Shown here: positions 18,146 to 25,708 of the stretch, piece after piece
Numbering within the stretch: position 1 is the first letter of the stretch
Layout: the number at the start of each line of letters is the position of its first letter
Source: Stigmatella aurantiaca DW4/3-1
Lineage (GTDB): Bacteria; Myxococcota; Myxococcia; Myxococcales; Myxococcaceae
Direction of reading: 5' to 3'
DNA length: 64,000 nucleotides
Assembly: GCF_000165485.1 (NCBI RefSeq)
Contig: NC_014623.1
Location: forward strand, 310,001-374,000
Made by a program: the position numbers and the translations under genes
The notes under the pieces: generated by a model
Seen by the model: the letters and a program-made list of their open reading frames with translations, nothing else
What the model was told of the DNA's origin: nothing
Database searches by the model: none

Positions 18146-18325
18146 GGAAGACCTCCAAGAAACGGTCACCCCACAGGCGGGGCGGCCACCTGGGAGACCA
18201 CCCGGGTTTGACATGAGTTTCAAGCAAAGCCTCTTTAACATTGAGTCCACGATGACAGCTGGGGACCGCCTTGACGCCCGTCCGTCCGGTGTCAGGTCAG
18301 GGAAAAGGGGCTTGCCCCGATCACC

Positions 18326-19258
18326 TCAGTCCTGCTGGAAGTGGCTGGGCTTGCCGTCGAGGTGCACCAGGCGCCCGAGTGTCGCGGCCTTCGCGCGCGG
18401 CATGAGGGTCCAGGTGCCGTCCGCGCGGCGCAGGGCCGCCGAGTGCCAGGGGGTGGTCCAGGCGTCGGGGGCGTCGAGGAGGCGGATGCCGAATTTGGCC
18501 GCGCCAACGGGCTGGGGGTGGATGGACAGCCGTACGGCGTTCGGGTGGTGCTCGGCGATGAGGTTGCCCCAGGCGCGGCTGCGCTGGATGACACCGTAGG
18601 CGCGCTGCCGGCAGGCGCGTTGGAGCGCGGAGCGGGTGCCGGGCCAGTCAGGGGTGTCCTCGACGAGGAAGCGGGTGATGCCCCGGTAGAGGGCGAGGGT
18701 GTGGTCGTCGACGTGGATCTCGGCGCGCACGTCGTCCAGGGCGGGGGCGTAGCGGTCGTGGGCGTGGGCGCGTTTCGCAGCATGAGGGAGGGGGCCGAAG
18801 ACGTCGCGCAGGTCGAAGACGCACAGTCTCTCCAGGCCCAGTTGATCGATCAGTGTGCGGAGTTCGTCGCTGTAGGCGTCGATGTGGTCATCTGGGACGC
18901 CGATGAGGTCGCTGAAGATGTGGCCGTCGGAGCAGATGATCACGCGGGCGCCGGGCCAGTGGATCCGTTGGATCTCGGTGCACAGGGTGTCCAGGAAGGT
19001 GAGGGAGAGGCGTTCTCCGTGGTCGGGCAGGTGGCCCAGAACCTTGGCCGGGTTGGGGGACTTGCAGGGGAAGCCGGGCAAGGTGAAGACGATGGGGGCG
19101 CCGTCGCGGACGAATGTGGCGATGCTGCGCAGTTGGTGGGGGAACGCCTTCACAGAGGCGGGGGTCAGGTCGGTCGTGCGGTGGTAACGGAGGAGGAGGT
19201 TCAGGATCGAGGCGCTGATGCTCGTGGGGAGGGCGTCCGGTGCGTTCGTCTGCAGCAT
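18326..19258 (-). CDS. isonitrile (isocyanide) synthase, PvcA/IsnA/DIT1 family
   Basis: The 310-residue protein starts at ATG 19258 after AGGAGA. It carries the DIT1_PvcA signature blocks GFPCKSPNPAKVLGHLPDHG and ARVIICSDGHIFSDLIGV, at the usual place in the first half, with normal family length. Members turn the amino group of L-Tyr or L-Trp (or, in another branch, related substrates) into an isonitrile using ribulose 5-phosphate as the carbon source. The common partner, a 2-oxoglutarate oxygenase of the PvcB/IsnB type, is absent. Instead a P450 lies 111 bases upstream on the same strand, with a second P450 and a ferredoxin divergent. This layout recalls xanthocillin- or hazimycin-type dimeric isonitriles. 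Which amino acid is used cannot be read from the sequence. Confidence 0.85.
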   Translation of the reverse strand: MLQTNAPDALPTSISASILNLLLRYHRTTDLTPASVKAFPHQLRSIATFVRDGAPIVFTLPGFPCKSPNPAKVLGHLPDHGERLSLTFLDTLCTEIQRIHWPGARVIICSDGHIFSDLIGVPDDHIDAYSDELRTLIDQLGLERLCVFDLRDVFGPLPHAAKRAHAHDRYAPALDDVRAEIHVDDHTLALYRGITRFLVEDTPDWPGTRSALQRACRQRAYGVIQRSRAWGNLIAEHHPNAVRLSIHPQPVGAAKFGIRLLDAPDAWTTPWHSAALRRADGTWTLMPRAKAATLGRLVHLDGKPSHFQQD

Positions 19259-19369
19259 GGCAGGTCTCCTGGCGCTGTGGCGGGATGCGGCCGGGCGCCG
19301 TCGGTAGCGGGTGGAACTGGTGGGCCGGATCGGACGGTGCGGCCGGATCCGGTCAGCCGAGTGTCGGTG

Positions 19370-20608
19370 TCAGAGGCGCCGGCCGTAGCCGACGGGCAGG
19401 TGGTTGGTGCCGCGGCCGAGGACGGCCGGGATCCACGCGATGGCCTCATCCCTGATGGACAGGTGCAGGCCGGGCAGCCGGGAGAGCAGGGTGCCGAGGG
19501 CGATCTGGAGTTCGGTGCGAGCGAGGGCGGCGCCGGGGCAGAAGTGGATGCCGTGGCCGAAGGCGAGGTGGGGGTTGGGGCTGCGGTCGAAGTCGAGGGT
19601 GTCGGGGTCGGGGAAGCGGCGCGGGTCGCGGTTGGCGGCGCACAGGGAGACGATCACCGAATCGCCAGCGGGAACACGCGTGCCGTGCAGGTCGCTGTCC
19701 CGGTCGAAGAAACGCCAAGTGGTCAGCTCGAAGGCGCTGTCGTAGCGCAGGAGTTCCTCGACGGCGCGGGGCAGCAGGTCCGGGTTGCCGCGGAGGCGGG
19801 CGAGCTGGCTGGGGTGACGGAACAGGGCGATCAAGGCGGTGGTGATCTGGTTGGTGACCGGTTCCTGGCCGGCGACGAGGAGCTGGAAGATCATCGAGCC
19901 CAGTTCCTCCTGGGACAGTTCACTGCGTTCGTGGGCCACGACGAGGCGGCTGAGCAGGTCGTCCTCCCTGTGCTCGCGTTTGTGGGCGACGACGCCGGCG
20001 ATGTAGCTCTGCAGGCCGTGCAGGCGTGCCTCGTACAGCGGCCGGCCTGGGTCGGTGGGGCCGACCGGCTGGACGACCTTCCCCCAGTCGCGGTCGAAGC
20101 GGCCTGCCAACTCGGGGGGGAGACCGATGAATTCGGCGAGGACCTGGAAGGGGAAGCGGGCGGCGAAGCCGGTGACCAGGTCCGCGGGGCCATGCTCGGG
20201 CAGCCCGTCGACGAGCGCGTCGGCCAGTGCCTGGAAACGGGGGCGGAGCTGTTCGATGCGCCGGGGCGTGAAGGCGTCCGTCACGAACCGGCGCATGCGG
20301 GTGTGCCGGGGCGGGTCCTGGTGGAGCAGGTGCACCTGGAGTTGGGAGTGCTGCGGCTCTGGCATGATCGAGGCGCGGGCTCGCCAGCGGTCGTTGCCTC
20401 GGCCGTGGTTCTTGCCGAGGCGGTCGTCGTTCAGCGCGGAGCGCGCGGCCTCGTAGCCGGTGACGAGCCAGGCCCGGACGCCGCTGGGGAAGAGCACGCG
20501 ATGGACCGGCCCTGCTTCACGCATCCGCTTGTATAGGAAGTAAGGGTTGGCCTTATAGGGGCAGCCCGTGAGCGGGACCGGATCGGGCAGGGGTTCGTGA
20601 AGGGCCAT
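19370..20608 (-). CDS. cytochrome P450, isonitrile cluster, unusual I-helix
   Basis: The 412-residue class I bacterial P450 starts at ATG 20608. The heme loop is FGHGIHFCPGAALA with the Cys ligand at about residue 357; ExxR is in VEELLRYD. The I-helix reads LLVAGQEPVTNQ where most P450s have AGxET: the acid is kept but the usual Thr that helps O-O cleavage is Pro. This is seen in some P450s with atypical chemistry. It is cytosolic and needs electrons from a ferredoxin, perhaps the one at 22089. It is probably co-transcribed with the isonitrile synthase downstream. Likely roles are oxidative coupling, desaturation or hydroxylation of the isonitrile product. The style of the sequence resembles actinobacterial P450s. 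Confidence 0.85.
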   Translation of the reverse strand: MALHEPLPDPVPLTGCPYKANPYFLYKRMREAGPVHRVLFPSGVRAWLVTGYEAARSALNDDRLGKNHGRGNDRWRARASIMPEPQHSQLQVHLLHQDPPRHTRMRRFVTDAFTPRRIEQLRPRFQALADALVDGLPEHGPADLVTGFAARFPFQVLAEFIGLPPELAGRFDRDWGKVVQPVGPTDPGRPLYEARLHGLQSYIAGVVAHKREHREDDLLSRLVVAHERSELSQEELGSMIFQLLVAGQEPVTNQITTALIALFRHPSQLARLRGNPDLLPRAVEELLRYDSAFELTTWRFFDRDSDLHGTRVPAGDSVIVSLCAANRDPRRFPDPDTLDFDRSPNPHLAFGHGIHFCPGAALARTELQIALGTLLSRLPGLHLSIRDEAIAWIPAVLGRGTNHLPVGYGRRL

Positions 20609-20862
20609 GGGTTCTTCTCAGTGGGCGAGATCGGGCTGGCAGTGGCGCCGACGAGGCCGCGGATGCGGCTCACATGGGTAGAGAAGTGAAATGGGTTTGT
20701 GAGGGCAGTGGGGGGATGGCCCCAACCGGCCTGGGTACTCGGTATTCGTGCAAGGCACGTCCGGAGCACGCGCGGCATCACAAGCGCGAGGGATTCCTTA
20801 CGCTCGCTCGTGACAAACGCTATCGGTGTGTCACACGGGTGCGGTCGCCACTCTGTCGACGT
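20609..20862. promoter_or_regulatory. divergent promoter region of the isonitrile cluster with an inverted repeat
   Basis: This 254-bp gap separates the two divergent P450 genes, so both transcripts should start here. GTGACA (20810-20815) and its reverse complement TGTCAC (20829-20834) are spaced 13 bases apart, about 30 bases before the plus-strand start, and could bind a dimeric regulator. No regulator gene lies in the cluster. No -10/-35 pair is clear. Confidence 0.4.
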
Positions 20863-22092
20863 ATGAGCACGAGAAACGCCAGTCGTGGGGATGCTCAGGC
20901 AATTCCTGGTTCACCGCCGCACTATCCGTTCGGGCCCGTCCGGGCCTTGGACCTCCACCCGCGGTACGCGGAACTGTGCCGGGAGGAGCCGGTCAGCCGC
21001 GTGAGGATGCCGTTCGGTGGTGAAGCGTGGCTGCTGACCGGCTACGCCGAGATCAAGCAGTTCCTGGCCGACCCGAGGTTCAGCTCCCTGAAAGCCACGG
21101 CGCCGGATACTGCCCGGGTTACCCCATTGCCGCTGCGGCCGGGAAACCTGCTCACGATGGATCCACCGGACCACACCCGGATCCGTCGCGTCGTGGCGAA
21201 GGCCTTCACGATGCGGCGGGTGGAGCAGTTGCGCGACCGGATCCGTGACGTGGTGGACAAGCAACTCGACCTGCTCGTTGCGCAGGGACCCCCGGCGGAC
21301 CTGGTCGCCAGTCTGGCGGTCCCGCTGCCGGTCGTGATGATCTCCGAGCTGTTTGGCATCCCCTACGCGGATCGGGAGCAGTTCCGCCGGTACGCCGACG
21401 TCTTCGTCGCCACGACGGCCTACGACGCCGTCGAGATCGACCGATCCCGGACGGCGCTGGAGCAGTACTTCCAGGAGTTGCTGGAACAGCGCCGCTCATG
21501 CCCCACGGACGACCTCGTCAGCACCTTGCTGGAGGCGATGGACACCGAGCGGCTGACGCCGCTCGAAACCGCTCGAACCGGTATCGGAATTCTCATGGCC
21601 GGCCACGAGACGTCGCTCAGCATGATCTCGAACAGCTGCTTCCTGTTGCTCTCCCACCGAGCGCTCTACGCCCAACTGGTGGCTGAACCCTTGCTGCTGC
21701 CGACGGCGGTCGAGGAACTGCTGCGGTACATCCCGTTGCGCTCGACCGGGAGCTTCCCGCGGCGAGCGACGGAGGACGTCGAGCTGGGGGGCGTCCTGAT
21801 CCGCAAGGGGGAGACGGTCATCTTCCAGCGCGCGTCCGCGGATCGTGACGAGCGCGTCTTCACGTGCCCCGAGAAGATCGACCTCACCCGCAGACCCAAC
21901 CCGCACCTCGGTTTCGGCCACGGGGCGCATCACTGCCTCGGAGCGTCGCTGGCCAGGTGCGAGTTGAGCCTCGCGATCGAGGGCCTGATCCGTAGGTTTC
22001 CAAACCTGCGGCTCGCAGTCCCTGATGGCGAGGTGCCGTGGAAGCCCGGGCTGATCGCCCGCTGCCCCGCACACCTCGAGGTGACGTGGTGA
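20863..22092 (+). CDS. cytochrome P450, isonitrile cluster
   Basis: The 409-residue P450 has the canonical I-helix GILMAGHETSLSMI, ExxR in VEELLRY, PERF-like ADRDERVF, and heme loop FGHGAHHCLGASLA with Cys at about 358. It resembles the CYP105/CYP107-like enzymes of actinobacteria. ATG 20863 is chosen because upstream sequence in the longer frame is not P450-like; a shorter start cannot be excluded. The stop overlaps the ferredoxin start by 4 bases (GTGA), so the two are translationally coupled and very likely a redox pair. The role is presumably oxidation of the isonitrile or its dimer, by analogy with the fungal xanthocillin pathway. Confidence 0.88.
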   Translation: MSTRNASRGDAQAIPGSPPHYPFGPVRALDLHPRYAELCREEPVSRVRMPFGGEAWLLTGYAEIKQFLADPRFSSLKATAPDTARVTPLPLRPGNLLTMDPPDHTRIRRVVAKAFTMRRVEQLRDRIRDVVDKQLDLLVAQGPPADLVASLAVPLPVVMISELFGIPYADREQFRRYADVFVATTAYDAVEIDRSRTALEQYFQELLEQRRSCPTDDLVSTLLEAMDTERLTPLETARTGIGILMAGHETSLSMISNSCFLLLSHRALYAQLVAEPLLLPTAVEELLRYIPLRSTGSFPRRATEDVELGGVLIRKGETVIFQRASADRDERVFTCPEKIDLTRRPNPHLGFGHGAHHCLGASLARCELSLAIEGLIRRFPNLRLAVPDGEVPWKPGLIARCPAHLEVTW

Positions 22093-22331
22093 GCGGCGGA
22101 ACCTCCCTGCCCCGTCGCTGGCGGGTCAGGGTCACGGAGAACTGTGCCGGCTGCGGGATGTGCGCCATGGCGGCACGCCGCTACTTCCACCTCGTGGACG
22201 GCCACTCGCAAGCCCGGCACAGCGAGGTCGATCCGGACGACGCCGTGATCGCTGCGGCCGAGCTGTGCCCGATGAACGCCATCGAAGTGTTCGACGCTGA
22301 CACCGGCGCCGAGGTGACACCCACGCCCTGA
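22089..22331 (+). CDS. small ferredoxin, electron donor for the P450s
   Basis: The 80-residue ferredoxin starts at GTG 22089, overlapping the P450 stop. The cluster motif is CAGCGMC (C19, C22, C25), with CP near residue 63 giving a fourth Cys. Many P450-associated ferredoxins have a non-Cys residue at the second position and bind [3Fe-4S]; four Cys here suggest [4Fe-4S] instead, or exchange between the two. It should pass electrons to the coupled P450 and perhaps to the one at 19370. No reductase gene is nearby, so a housekeeping ferredoxin reductase must supply it. Confidence 0.88.
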   Translation: MSGGTSLPRRWRVRVTENCAGCGMCAMAARRYFHLVDGHSQARHSEVDPDDAVIAAAELCPMNAIEVFDADTGAEVTPTP

Positions 22332-22375
22332 ACCGGCCTCAGGACCCGTTGGCGGGGCGGCAAGGGGGCCTGCTG

Positions 22376-25300
22376 TCAGGGTTGCGCTGTCCTCGGTGAG
22401 GTGGGCGCGATGGATCGCAAGGGGGCATCGCTGCCCAGGGCGATGAAGGGAGCCCAATCGTGGGGATGAGGCCGGGAAGCGCGAAGTGAGCGCATGGCCT
22501 CGTGCAGAGCGAAGGCCCGGCCCTGGCCGGCCAGGAGGTTGCGGTAGTAGGCGTCCATGAGCAGGCGGGTGGAGTCGTCATTGACCTTCCACAGGCTCAT
22601 GACGATGGTCTCGGCGCCGGCCACCACGAGCGAGCGGCGCAGGCCCTGGACGCCCTGGCCCAGTTGGACCTGGCCGCGGCCGGTGTCGCAGGCGGAGAGG
22701 ACGACGAGCTGGGTGCCCCAGAGGTTGAGCCCGGCCAGCTCGAGCGCGGTGACCAGTGCGGCGTCGGGACGATGCGGGGAAGGCGCGGAGGCGCCGTCAG
22801 ATTCCAGGGCGCGTGCCCCCGCGAGGGCGAGGCCCGAGCGCAGCAGCGGTGCCTGGAGGCTGGGTGGCTGGGGGAGCTCGCCGAGCGCACCGAAGTGGAC
22901 CACGGCGCGGGAGCCCGGGGGCACAGGGGCATCGTCGATGAAGAATCCATGGGTGGCCAGGTGGAGGATGCCAGGCGTGGGCAGCTTGAAAAGCCGCTCC
23001 TTGGAGGCCTCGGGGCCCAGGAAGAGCTGGGCTTGAGACAGCAGGCGCTGAATGCTCTCGGCCTCCTGACGGGTGCCAGGCAGGGGGACCCATGTGCTGC
23101 TGGGGAGGTCCGCGCGGGCGGTGGAGAGGAAGCGCTCAATGGCGCTGGAAGACACGGCCCGCGTGGAGAGAAGGCTGGCGCCGGAGGGGGGCGCGGTGAA
23201 GTCCGGGTCGGCGAGGACGACGACAGAGGAAGAGGGGGCGAGCTCTTCGGGATGCGGCAGCAGCTGTCTTCCAGAGGTGAGGTAGAGGAAATCGAAGGAG
23301 TCGAGAAGGAAGCCGTGGCCGTCGTGGAGCGCGGCGAAGGGAATGAGGCTCAGCTGCCCATCGGGAGACAGCAGAATGCGGCGGGTGGATCCCAGCAGGG
23401 GGAGGAGGGGCTGAAAGGCGCTCTGGTAGAGCGCCTGGGCGGTGACTTGGAAGGAGGTGTCGCGGTTGGCCAGGGCGTCGCGCAGGCGCGAGGCGTCGCG
23501 GTCGATGGGGGCGGCGGGGCCCAGGTCCACGGCGCGCGTGGAGGCATCGGGGAAGAGGACCAGGGCCAGGTAGCGCAGCTGGCTGGGAAGCTGTTCGGAA
23601 GGCGTCCCGTTTTGGGGGATGAGGGGTTTGTCCGTGTAGGTGATGAACTCGACCAGGGCGCCATCCTGGGGGAGAGAGGCGGCGACGCGGTCGACGATGT
23701 CGGCGGGAGAGGGCAGGGCGGTGAGGACGCGGAAGGGAGCGGAGCGCCGGGCGAGGCCCGCTTCGAGGGCGTCGCCCGCGTCGGTCAGAGACTGGAGCCG
23801 CTGTGGGTAGTCTCCAGGGCTGAGGGAGCCGGGCCCCTTGAGCGAGAGCGTGGCCAGTTGGGTGCGCAGTTCCCGCAGCCGCTCGAAGGCGTCGCGGTCC
23901 TCGGGGCTCAGGCTTTGGGCGAGGGTGAGGGAGATGTTGGCGGCTTCCTCGATGGAGCGGCCCTTGCGCAGGAGCACCGCACCGAGGGCCAGGCGTTGGA
24001 CGCGGGGGTCCTCCGGGTGCATGCGCAGCAGGGTGTAGAGGGTTTGCTCGTTCGCGCGGAGATACTGGAGGAAGGCCGTCAGGCGTGACTCGGAGAAGTC
24101 GAGCGCCTCCTGGCGCAAGCGCTGCTCGGAGAGGGAGAAGGCGCGGGTGAAGAGAGGCAATGCGTCAGAGAGGCGATGCTGGGCCAGGCGCAGCAGGGCG
24201 AAGTTGTTGAGCGAGGCGGCGACATCCGGGTGGCTCTTGCCGAGGGTCGCCTCCCGGGTGGTGAGCGCGCGCCGGTAGAGGGGCTCGGCCTGGCCGTAGA
24301 GTTCTTGCTCAAAGAAGAAGACGGCGAGGTTGTTGCGCGAGGTGGCGGTCTTGGGGTGGTTTTTGCCGAGGGCCGCCTCCCGGAGGGTGAGCGCACGTTG
24401 AAGCAGGGGTTTGGCCCGCTCGTACAACCCTTGGTCCGAGTAGAGGCTGGCGAGGTGTTGGAGGGTTTGGGCGACGTCGGGGTGGCTCTTGCCGAGGGCC
24501 TCTTCCTGGAGGGCGAGTGCACGTTGGAGGAGGGGTTCGGCCCGGCCGTACAATTCCTGGGATTGGTAGAAGATGGCGAAGTTGGTGAGCAATGTGGCGA
24601 CTTGGGGGTGGGCCTCGCCCAAGGCGGTCTCCGAGATGGCGAGCGCGCGCTGATGAAGCGGCTCGGACCGGTCATAGAGCCCCTGCAAATCGTAAAGTTT
24701 GGCGAGGTTGTTGAGCGCCATGGCGACGTGGGGGTGGTCAGGGCCCAGGACCTCCTCCCAGTTCGAGAGTGCGCGTTGGAAGAGCGGTTCGGCCCGGTCG
24801 TACAACCCCTGCTCGAGAAAGAGCGCGGCCAGGTTGTTGAGCGTCATGGAGACGTAGGGGTGGTGGGGGCCCCGCTCCTTCTCCCAGAGCGAGAGCGCGC
24901 GCTGGAAGAGCGGTTCGGCCCGGCCGTACAACCCCTGCTCGAGAAAGAGCGCGGCCAGGTTGTTGAGCGAGGTGGCGACGTCCGGGTGGTGGGGGCCGAG
25001 CGCTTCGCGGATGGCGAGCGCGCGCTGATAGAGAGGCTCGGCCCGGTCGTACAACCCCTGCTTCAGGGCGATCACGGCGAGGGCATCGAGCGAGTTGGCG
25101 ACATCCGGGTGGTTCTTGCCGAAGGCCGCTTCGCGGATGGCGAGCGCGCGCTGGAAGAGGGGCTCGGCCTGGCCGTACAAGCCTTGATCCGTATAGAGGA
25201 TGGCGAGGCTCTGGAGCGAGGCAGCGACGTGGGGGTGGCTCTTGCCAAGGGCCGCTTCCCGGAGGGAAAGCGCGCGCTGAAGCAGCGGCTTGGCATGGGC

Positions 25301-25573
25301 CAAGTCTCCTTGCAGCCGGTAGAGGTTACCCAGTTGATTCAGACAGCTGGCAACCTCGGGATGGGTCCTTCCCAGGACGGCTTCCCGGAGCGCACTGGCA
25401 TGTTGGACCCGGGCAAGCGCACTGGAATAGTCACCTGAGCGTTGGAGCTCCGCTGCCTCGTCGAGCGCGGCTTGTGCCTCCGCCAGCCGCGCATCCGGCT
25501 CCCTCTTGTCGGCTTCTCCGCTCGCCGCACAGCACAGCACCACCACCAGCATCCATCCGAAAACGCGACGCAT
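22376..25573 (-). CDS. secreted TPR-CHAT caspase-like protease
   Basis: The 1065-residue protein starts at ATG 25573, well placed after AGGGGAC. A signal peptide (FGWMLVVVLCCAASG) precedes about eleven 42-residue TPR units of the kinesin-light-chain type (to about residue 480; unit four lacks one residue), a helical linker, and a C-terminal CHAT peptidase domain. The catalytic dyad is His875 in ATHGFF and Cys962 in SACDTG. CHAT proteases cut after activation by a TPR-sensed partner. An export signal is unusual because most act in the cytoplasm, so it may work in the periplasm. Longer starts lack a ribosome site. A decayed paralogue lies at 3814-5662. It is convergent with the ferredoxin gene and not obviously part of that cluster. 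Confidence 0.88.
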   Translation of the reverse strand: MRRVFGWMLVVVLCCAASGEADKREPDARLAEAQAALDEAAELQRSGDYSSALARVQHASALREAVLGRTHPEVASCLNQLGNLYRLQGDLAHAKPLLQRALSLREAALGKSHPHVAASLQSLAILYTDQGLYGQAEPLFQRALAIREAAFGKNHPDVANSLDALAVIALKQGLYDRAEPLYQRALAIREALGPHHPDVATSLNNLAALFLEQGLYGRAEPLFQRALSLWEKERGPHHPYVSMTLNNLAALFLEQGLYDRAEPLFQRALSNWEEVLGPDHPHVAMALNNLAKLYDLQGLYDRSEPLHQRALAISETALGEAHPQVATLLTNFAIFYQSQELYGRAEPLLQRALALQEEALGKSHPDVAQTLQHLASLYSDQGLYERAKPLLQRALTLREAALGKNHPKTATSRNNLAVFFFEQELYGQAEPLYRRALTTREATLGKSHPDVAASLNNFALLRLAQHRLSDALPLFTRAFSLSEQRLRQEALDFSESRLTAFLQYLRANEQTLYTLLRMHPEDPRVQRLALGAVLLRKGRSIEEAANISLTLAQSLSPEDRDAFERLRELRTQLATLSLKGPGSLSPGDYPQRLQSLTDAGDALEAGLARRSAPFRVLTALPSPADIVDRVAASLPQDGALVEFITYTDKPLIPQNGTPSEQLPSQLRYLALVLFPDASTRAVDLGPAAPIDRDASRLRDALANRDTSFQVTAQALYQSAFQPLLPLLGSTRRILLSPDGQLSLIPFAALHDGHGFLLDSFDFLYLTSGRQLLPHPEELAPSSSVVVLADPDFTAPPSGASLLSTRAVSSSAIERFLSTARADLPSSTWVPLPGTRQEAESIQRLLSQAQLFLGPEASKERLFKLPTPGILHLATHGFFIDDAPVPPGSRAVVHFGALGELPQPPSLQAPLLRSGLALAGARALESDGASAPSPHRPDAALVTALELAGLNLWGTQLVVLSACDTGRGQVQLGQGVQGLRRSLVVAGAETIVMSLWKVNDDSTRLLMDAYYRNLLAGQGRAFALHEAMRSLRASRPHPHDWAPFIALGSDAPLRSIAPTSPRTAQP
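24130..25440 (-). repeat. tandem 126-bp repeats encoding TPR units
   Basis: About ten to eleven units encode the pattern LNNLAxLFLEQGLYxRAEP then LFQRALxxxE and GxxHPDVAxS. Neighbouring units share long near-identical stretches, for example the two around 24780-24970, so copy-number change by recombination is likely. Confidence 0.85.
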
Positions 25574-25708
25574 CTCGTCCCCTGTTCCGCAAAGCCCACC
25601 CACTCACGGACGACCGTGGAGAGCATGAGACATGGCCAGAAGCGCCGCGACAACGGTGTATCGCGCTGACAAGATCGTGTTTATCCGGTAAAGAAAGATT
25701 TTCTGTTT

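Follow-up and report, generated by a model that had tools for sequence, protein, structure and literature searches.

A putative isonitrile cassette with two cytochromes P450 and a ferredoxin, shared by Stigmatella aurantiaca, other myxobacteria and Streptomyces

Several described pathways bear comparison with a compact gene cassette found at positions 18326 to 22331 of a 64,000-nucleotide stretch (the window; contig NC_014623.1, positions 310,001 to 374,000) of the genome of the myxobacterium Stigmatella aurantiaca DW4/3-1. The cassette comprises four intact genes: isnA, encoding an isonitrile synthase; P450A; and, divergent from these, P450B with an overlapping ferredoxin gene (Fdx). Hazimycin, reportedly a diisonitrile chalkophore, is said to have had its biosynthesis in actinobacteria described by Matsuda et al. 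in 2024 (J. Antibiot. 77:228); this study, cited in PMC11085572, very likely covers the isnA-P450A core. Like hazimycin-type loci, the cassette has P450A next to an isnA of their lineage, with identities of up to 80% for isnA, but no amidotransferase, MFS exporter, FecCD importer or copper genes were found linked to it, and P450B and a ferredoxin are there instead. With the PvcA-PvcB and IsnA-IsnB systems, which lead to paerucumarin, rhabduscin, byelyankacin and the hapalindoles, it shares a PvcA-family synthase, but no iron- and 2-oxoglutarate-dependent (Fe/2OG) desaturase was found in the cassette, where two P450s and a ferredoxin stand instead. Yeast Dit1/Dit2 and fungal XanB/XanG likewise pair a PvcA-family enzyme with a P450, which, according to PMC5974471 and PMC7345447, is thought to dimerize a tyrosine derivative; the P450s of the cassette, in contrast, are of the bacterial type and come with a ferredoxin, and Dit1 itself is reported not to be an isocyanide synthase.

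Our preferred interpretation, which we hold to be on balance probable, is that these genes form a horizontally acquired isonitrile cassette of actinobacterial origin, in which a pathway would run from isnA through P450A and then P450B/Fdx to a copper-binding diisonitrile. The component features are as follows.

18326..19258, minus strand: isnA, isonitrile (isocyanide) synthase, 310 amino acids (Pfam DIT1_PvcA, E 2.6e-75)
19370..20608, minus strand: P450A, cytochrome P450, 412 amino acids, putative phenol-coupling enzyme and upstream partner of isnA (Pfam p450, E 9.3e-30)
20609..20862, no strand: divergent intergenic region (blastn and alignments between five genomes)
20863..22092, plus strand: P450B, cytochrome P450, 409 amino acids from a likely ATG at 20863 (Pfam p450, E 8.4e-28)
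22089..22331, plus strand: Fdx, small four-cysteine iron-sulfur ferredoxin, 80 amino acids, with a GTG start at 22089 overlapping the P450B stop (Pfam Fer4_13, E 3.2e-7, and sequence)
18321..20644, minus strand: module 1 (isnA-P450A), which moves as a unit, with flanks unrelated between genomes (blastn to loci L013-L016)
20818..22346, plus strand: module 2 (P450B-Fdx) (blastn to L013, L015, L108 and L109; positions)

The isonitrile synthase of the original prediction is borne out by Pfam, where isnA scores 253.9 bits against PF05141 (curated cut-off 26.4) and so belongs to the PvcA/DIT1 family; its best match in the PDB is PvcA 3e59 (E 5e-79). It is the only PF05141 match in the whole host genome, which is complete, spans 10.26 Mb in a single contig and counts Archangium among its relatives. 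The two P450s and the ferredoxin that had been predicted are also real genes, by their matches to Pfam p450 (both P450s) and Fer4_13, but their starts had to be moved, that of P450B to 20863 (likely) and that of the ferredoxin to 22089. The P450B frame is open from 20674 to 22092 on the plus strand, and an upstream ATG at 20674 would give 472 amino acids. Nucleotide conservation, however, starts at 20818-20828 in the three genomes with a separate P450B, and 20863, as the first in-frame ATG inside it, is therefore the likely start. Within the intergenic region one conserved stretch lies upstream of P450A (to ~20796) and a second just upstream of P450B (from ~20818). Pairwise ratios of nonsynonymous to synonymous substitution (dN/dS) against the other myxobacterial copies (isnA 0.35-0.60, P450A 0.15-0.29, P450B 0.30-0.38 and ferredoxin 0.43-0.55) indicate maintained coding sequence. 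An antisense open reading frame (ORF) at 18341-20536 (plus strand, 731 amino acids) was set aside as a shadow of isnA and P450A.

The isnA and P450B genes have the same distribution in myxobacteria. Of the 145 genomes searched in the order, four apart from the host have a close isnA (82-87% identity), six further matches being distant (29-45%), and P450B (E<=1e-90, best 12 candidates per genome scored) occurs in the same five, even where unlinked, with 89-91% identity in the four others; a 5/5 overlap would arise by chance with a probability of about 2e-9, kinship uncorrected. All five genomes keep isnA, P450A and P450B, in varying arrangements. Modules 1 and 2 are contiguous and divergent, in the same four-gene layout, in the host and G083; in G044 (Archangium) ~3 kb separates them, and there is no linkage in G043, where the distance is 3.7 Mb, or in G046 (A. 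violaceum Cb vi76), where they are on different contigs. By blastn, the ~4.0 kb at 18321-22352 are 88% identical to G083, the match stopping at the gene edges with unrelated flanks outside. Apart from these, very divergent PF05141 proteins (55-61 bits) are encoded in G057 (L021:7724-9148, plus strand) and G043 (L022:8302-9528, plus strand), and the 20 kb loci L021 and L022 gave no P450A, P450B or IsnB matches.

P450B extends into a second phylum. Six of 392 sampled Streptomyces genomes carry it at 66-69% identity (best four candidates per genome scored); all six also carry isnA, against a baseline of 69/392 (hypergeometric P 2.5e-5, kinship uncorrected), and in five the two genes lie within ~11 kb of each other. 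A search of 396 genomes across the phylum (best four candidates per genome) gave one weaker match (51%) passing the same limit. The eleven close P450B sequences form one clade (100/100) of two groups, five myxobacterial and six from Streptomyces, all from isnA-bearing genomes. The Streptomyces clusters (L152-L157) resemble the cassette in that isnA, P450A and P450B are present in all six genomes, five of them (L153-L157) also having a related ferredoxin (39-45%) close to P450B. They differ in their divergence from the host genes, with identities of 57-62% for isnA and 63-69% for P450A (in the five genomes with both near P450B) and 66-69% for P450B. In L155 and L156 the four genes are contiguous, but lie on one strand in the order P450B-Fdx-P450A-isnA, and have deoxysugar and ABC exporter-type genes alongside; the adjoining sugar genes encode a sugar nucleotidyltransferase (L155) and a 3,5-epimerase, an epimerase/dehydratase-family protein and a 2,3-dehydratase (L156). 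L154 differs in having an EryCIII-like glycosyltransferase and a flavin adenine dinucleotide (FAD) monooxygenase.

A scan of GTDB genomes returned 379 isnA relatives, of which the best 80 were kept: two from Archangium and 78 actinobacterial, mostly Streptomyces and Kitasatospora. The host isnA is 62-80% identical to these 78, and the lineage (E<=1e-90) occurs in 69 of the 392 sampled Streptomyces genomes, the best five candidates per genome being scored. In 75 of the 78 loci isnA is preceded on its strand by P450A, with 80-89% identity for P450A in 56 of those 75; of the other three, L053 and L098 begin at the end of a contig or close to it, and in L082 isnA is only partly matched. In the flanks, at >=45% identity, are found genes for a binding protein (75 loci), FecCD (74), an ABC ATPase (76), an MFS protein (65), an Asn-synthase/GATase amidotransferase (59), an ECF sigma factor (58) and a membrane protein (18), together with copper genes for a PCuAC chaperone (24), a CopA-type ATPase (21) and an HMA chaperone (13). 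These counts are lower bounds, as several flanks are cut. We take the 78 loci to be hazimycin-type, a label drawn from their gene content; a set comprising isonitrile synthase, amidation, phenol coupling, import/export and copper genes fits hazimycin. P450B and its ferredoxin occur in none of the 78. Six loci (L085, L089, L092, L094, L095 and L096; Kitasatospora/Streptomyces, no amidotransferase match) have a second, different P450 (36-38% to P450A) ~6 kb upstream of isnA on the opposite strand.

In the isnA tree the five myxobacterial sequences form one clade (SH-like approximate likelihood ratio test, SH-aLRT, 100) among Streptomyces, with nesting branches of only 80-83; in the P450A tree, for which 51 of 89 rows were used, the five myxobacterial rows (97) belong to a larger set of 25 (97), the other 20 being actinobacterial. 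As the two trees agree, the isnA-P450A pair most likely moved from actinobacteria to myxobacteria. A search of plasmids gave 15 records that contain an isnA relative; six, at ~74% identity, are from Streptomyces and measure 93-223 kb (NZ_CP109039.1, NZ_CP108296.1, NZ_CP108254.1, NZ_CP108107.1, NZ_CP130717.1 and NZ_CP109020.1). Such plasmids, with a close isnA, are a possible route of transfer.

The partners that accompany isnA elsewhere are missing. When the TauD regions of two IsnB homologues encoded in the myxobacterial loci L019 and L020 served as a tblastn query (E<=1e-3), no match to a PvcB/IsnB-type oxygenase was obtained in the window, L013-L016, L108, L109, L021-L102, L152-L157 or L164-L168; as a positive control, the query matched next to isnA in four divergent myxobacterial loci, L017 and L018 (at 42-45%) and the two from which it was made, and the predicted lack of a PvcB-type partner is upheld. 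In the whole host genome the strongest TauD-region match had 24% identity (E 8e-4), and none was credible. No linked amidotransferase, importer/exporter or copper genes were matched in the window, L013-L016, L108 or L109, and it also stands that no linked transporter or nonribosomal peptide synthetase is seen at the locus. An amidotransferase was equally without a match around the Streptomyces P450B, in L152-L157, L164 and L165, and amidotransferase and P450B were never seen together in one fetched locus, which suggests that they are alternative partners of the isnA-P450A core. Both types can share a genome, as G344 also has L166, with an amidotransferase and a split isnA. In L166 (G344:C24:49318-50237) the hazimycin-type isnA is split, its two matches lying in different open frames; P450A and the amidotransferase are matched at full length next to it, the importer and exporter only in part. 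The loci that supplied the IsnB query have features of their own: in L019 (4738-6309, minus strand) and L020 (8879-10489, plus strand) a single open frame encodes the isonitrile synthase preceded by a TetR DNA-binding domain at its N-terminus, and the following gene encodes a fusion of a TauD-type IsnB with a UbiA prenyltransferase domain. These are possibly self-regulating, prenylating isonitrile loci.

It had been guessed that the P450s act in a hazimycin-like coupling, and this gains support from the closest isnA-P450A relatives, which lie in importer/exporter/amidotransferase loci, some with copper genes. The idea that the four-gene arrangement is new, in contrast, is not supported, with the same layout in the myxobacterium G083 and the same genes contiguous in Streptomyces L155 and L156; nor is the pairing novel, the isnA lineage being present in 69/392 Streptomyces genomes, with P450A in 75/78 actinobacterial loci and with a PvcB-like gene in 0/78. 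The isnA-P450A core is known in kind, and it is the two-P450 set without PvcB or amidotransferase that is, to our knowledge, undescribed. No account of that set, or of a myxobacterial isonitrile cluster with P450s, was recognized in the open-licence literature searched, which is not proof of its absence in print.

The two P450s differ in their oxygen-activating motifs. The I-helix of P450A reads AGQEPVT in 89/89 rows, with proline at the position of the conserved threonine, where PikC, its best PDB match, has the usual form AGHETT; P450B has AGHETS in 11/11. These motifs fit, without proving, radical coupling by P450A and ordinary oxygenation by P450B. A heme-motif pattern matched 86/89 P450A and 15/15 P450B rows, and an ExxR pattern 80/89 and 7/15, the latter being too strict to test loss. 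The PDB sequence matches of P450A and P450B pointed to no substrate.

In the pathway that we propose, IsnA would convert an aromatic amino acid, most likely L-tyrosine, into an alpha-isocyano acid, and P450A, the regular partner of this isnA lineage, would couple two such phenols into a biaryl diisonitrile, as is assumed for hazimycin. P450B, with electrons from Fdx, would then oxidize this product, by hydroxylation or by desaturation/decarboxylation at the side chain, thereby taking the place of the amidotransferase of hazimycin-type loci and of the Fe/2OG oxygenase PvcB/IsnB of classic loci. The result would be a copper-binding diisonitrile, probably released as an antibiotic or metal-withholding agent; as no dedicated importer was co-inherited, such a released agent seems likelier here than a re-imported chalkophore. 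A further suggestion, which we offer tentatively and regard as possible but doubtful, is that P450B and its ferredoxin represent an unrecognized P450 family for isonitrile tailoring, common to myxobacteria and Streptomyces, which stands in for PvcB-type desaturation as well as for hazimycin-type amidation, so that tyrosine-isonitrile pathways would have a third branch, with a new diisonitrile scaffold.

A number of points weigh against the proposed pathway. Its chemistry is deduced throughout from gene content, and the NCBIfam equivalog model for L-tyrosine (TyIsonSynPvcA) scores isnA at 282 bits, below its curated cut-off of 600 bits. The missing threonine of P450A is not diagnostic of phenol coupling, since P450eryF is without it yet hydroxylates. 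The P values for co-occurrence of P450B and isnA ignore shared ancestry; a single ancestral acquisition followed by scattering could also explain the overlap in myxobacteria. Since each genome search scored a handful of best candidates per genome, the absences reported from these searches are not exhaustive. The ferredoxin after P450B is lost in G046, and in the Streptomyces genome G199 the nearest isnA is ~116 kb from P450B. In some of the genomes with P450B, copper or related genes persist close to isnA (CopA at 70% and PCuAC at 38% in L165, MFS at 58% in L164 and an ECF sigma factor at 61% in L154), so that importer loss may not mark the P450B branch. Nor do amidotransferase and P450B strictly exclude a third state, for neither is matched in 19 of the 78 actinobacterial loci. 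L167, a copper-linked isnA-P450A locus of G199, is likewise without an amidotransferase match, and the core can evidently stand without either partner. As 14 of those 19 have >=9.4 kb of upstream sequence, the amidotransferase is not universal in the lineage. Finally, amidation may occur in trans in the host.

A first alternative explanation is that isnA and P450A perform the conserved hazimycin chemistry while an unlinked chromosomal amidotransferase supplies the amide, P450B-Fdx being a bystander or adding a minor change. We consider this unlikely, although the 19 loci with neither partner weaken both the preferred pathway and the third-branch suggestion and strengthen it, as actinobacterial isnA loci likewise without a linked amidotransferase, and the 80-89% identity of P450A in most actinobacterial loci having it points the same way. 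A search across the order did find a hazimycin-type amidotransferase homologue elsewhere in the host genome (49%) and one in G044 (41%). However, genomes in which isnA has no match at all (G075, G078 and G079) contain counterparts of the 49% homologue, no amidotransferase at E<=1e-60 was found among the best eight candidates scored per genome in the cassette-bearing G043, G046 and G083, and P450B co-occurs with isnA in two phyla. Homologues of the hazimycin FecCD are at only 37-44% identity in the seven myxobacterial genomes concerned, of which G045 and G077 are cassette-free, and the chromosomal amidotransferase and FecCD homologues were rejected as cassette partners, being general homologues that do not track the cassette. 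An equally improbable account has P450B alone replacing PvcB/IsnB, so that the monomer becomes a vinyl isonitrile by desaturation or oxidative decarboxylation and P450A then dimerizes it into a xanthocillin-like compound. Rhabduscin and byelyankacin are glycosylated vinyl isonitriles, and the deoxysugar genes in two of the six P450B-bearing Streptomyces stretches (L155 and L156) are what such products would lead one to expect; P450B also keeps the standard oxygen-activating motif. We know of no P450, however, that turns an isonitrile monomer into a vinyl isonitrile, and the saturated side chain of hazimycin indicates that a desaturase is not obligatory in this lineage. The classic pathways do use the desaturating Fe/2OG partner PvcB/IsnB, as PMC9467999 describes, and none is linked here.

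Two further explanations depart more widely from a secreted diisonitrile. Streptomyces and many myxobacteria sporulate, and a bacterial system like Dit1/Dit2 might use formyl- or isocyano-tyrosine, from which the P450 would make a dityrosine-type cross-linker of the spore wall and no secreted antibiotic. The pairing of a PvcA-family enzyme with a P450 is indeed found in isnA-P450A, and in yeast the PvcA-family Dit1 and the divergent P450 Dit2 make the bisformyl dityrosine of the spore wall, according to PMC7345447 and PMC5974471. A general spore-wall trait would nevertheless be expected more widely than in the 5/145 genomes of the order that have a close isnA, and the actinobacterial loci mostly have importer and exporter genes, some with copper genes; we regard this explanation as quite unlikely. 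Least probable of all, in our estimation, is a decaying acquired fragment without a product in the host strain. The locus is without importer, exporter and amidotransferase partners, and Pfam gave no match for the four ORFs that were tried at 16.5-18.25 kb, to the left of it, but the four frames are open, dN/dS is that of maintained genes and five genomes keep isnA, P450A and P450B.

The surroundings of the cassette bear no relation to isonitrile chemistry as far as Pfam shows for the neighbors scanned, which encode, to the left, a zinc-dependent dehydrogenase together with an aromatic-ring FAD monooxygenase and, to the right, a CHAT-TPR protein together with an M23 peptidase. The CHAT-TPR protein (22376-25603, minus strand) belongs to a family that is multicopy in the host genome and its relatives. 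No clear terminal repeat was seen, a repeat scan of 18150-22500 giving short imperfect repeats, one of which, 18 bases long (78%), is present at 20724-20741 and again at 22331-22348, close to the module edges. No clean empty site was obtained in the same-genus genome G077, where the CHAT-TPR and M23 flanks are separated. The left flank of G083 (a prolyl oligopeptidase, L013:1467-3541) and the right flank of the window (CHAT-TPR, 22381-25612) map to the same 6.5 kb of cassette-free G077 (L150), hinting at a shared insertion region.

Whereas an Fe/2OG desaturase is the partner of the well-studied isonitrile synthases of bacteria, the lineage described here has P450A as its regular partner, and a sub-branch of it adds a second P450 and a ferredoxin, the eleven close members of which all come from isonitrile-synthase genomes in two phyla. 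P450B thereby becomes a marker for finding more such clusters, and the cassette, with its four genes, is compact enough to be tested for what may be a new diisonitrile scaffold. For the myxobacteria, it would represent an actinobacterial, often copper-linked pathway that was most likely passed on without its importer.

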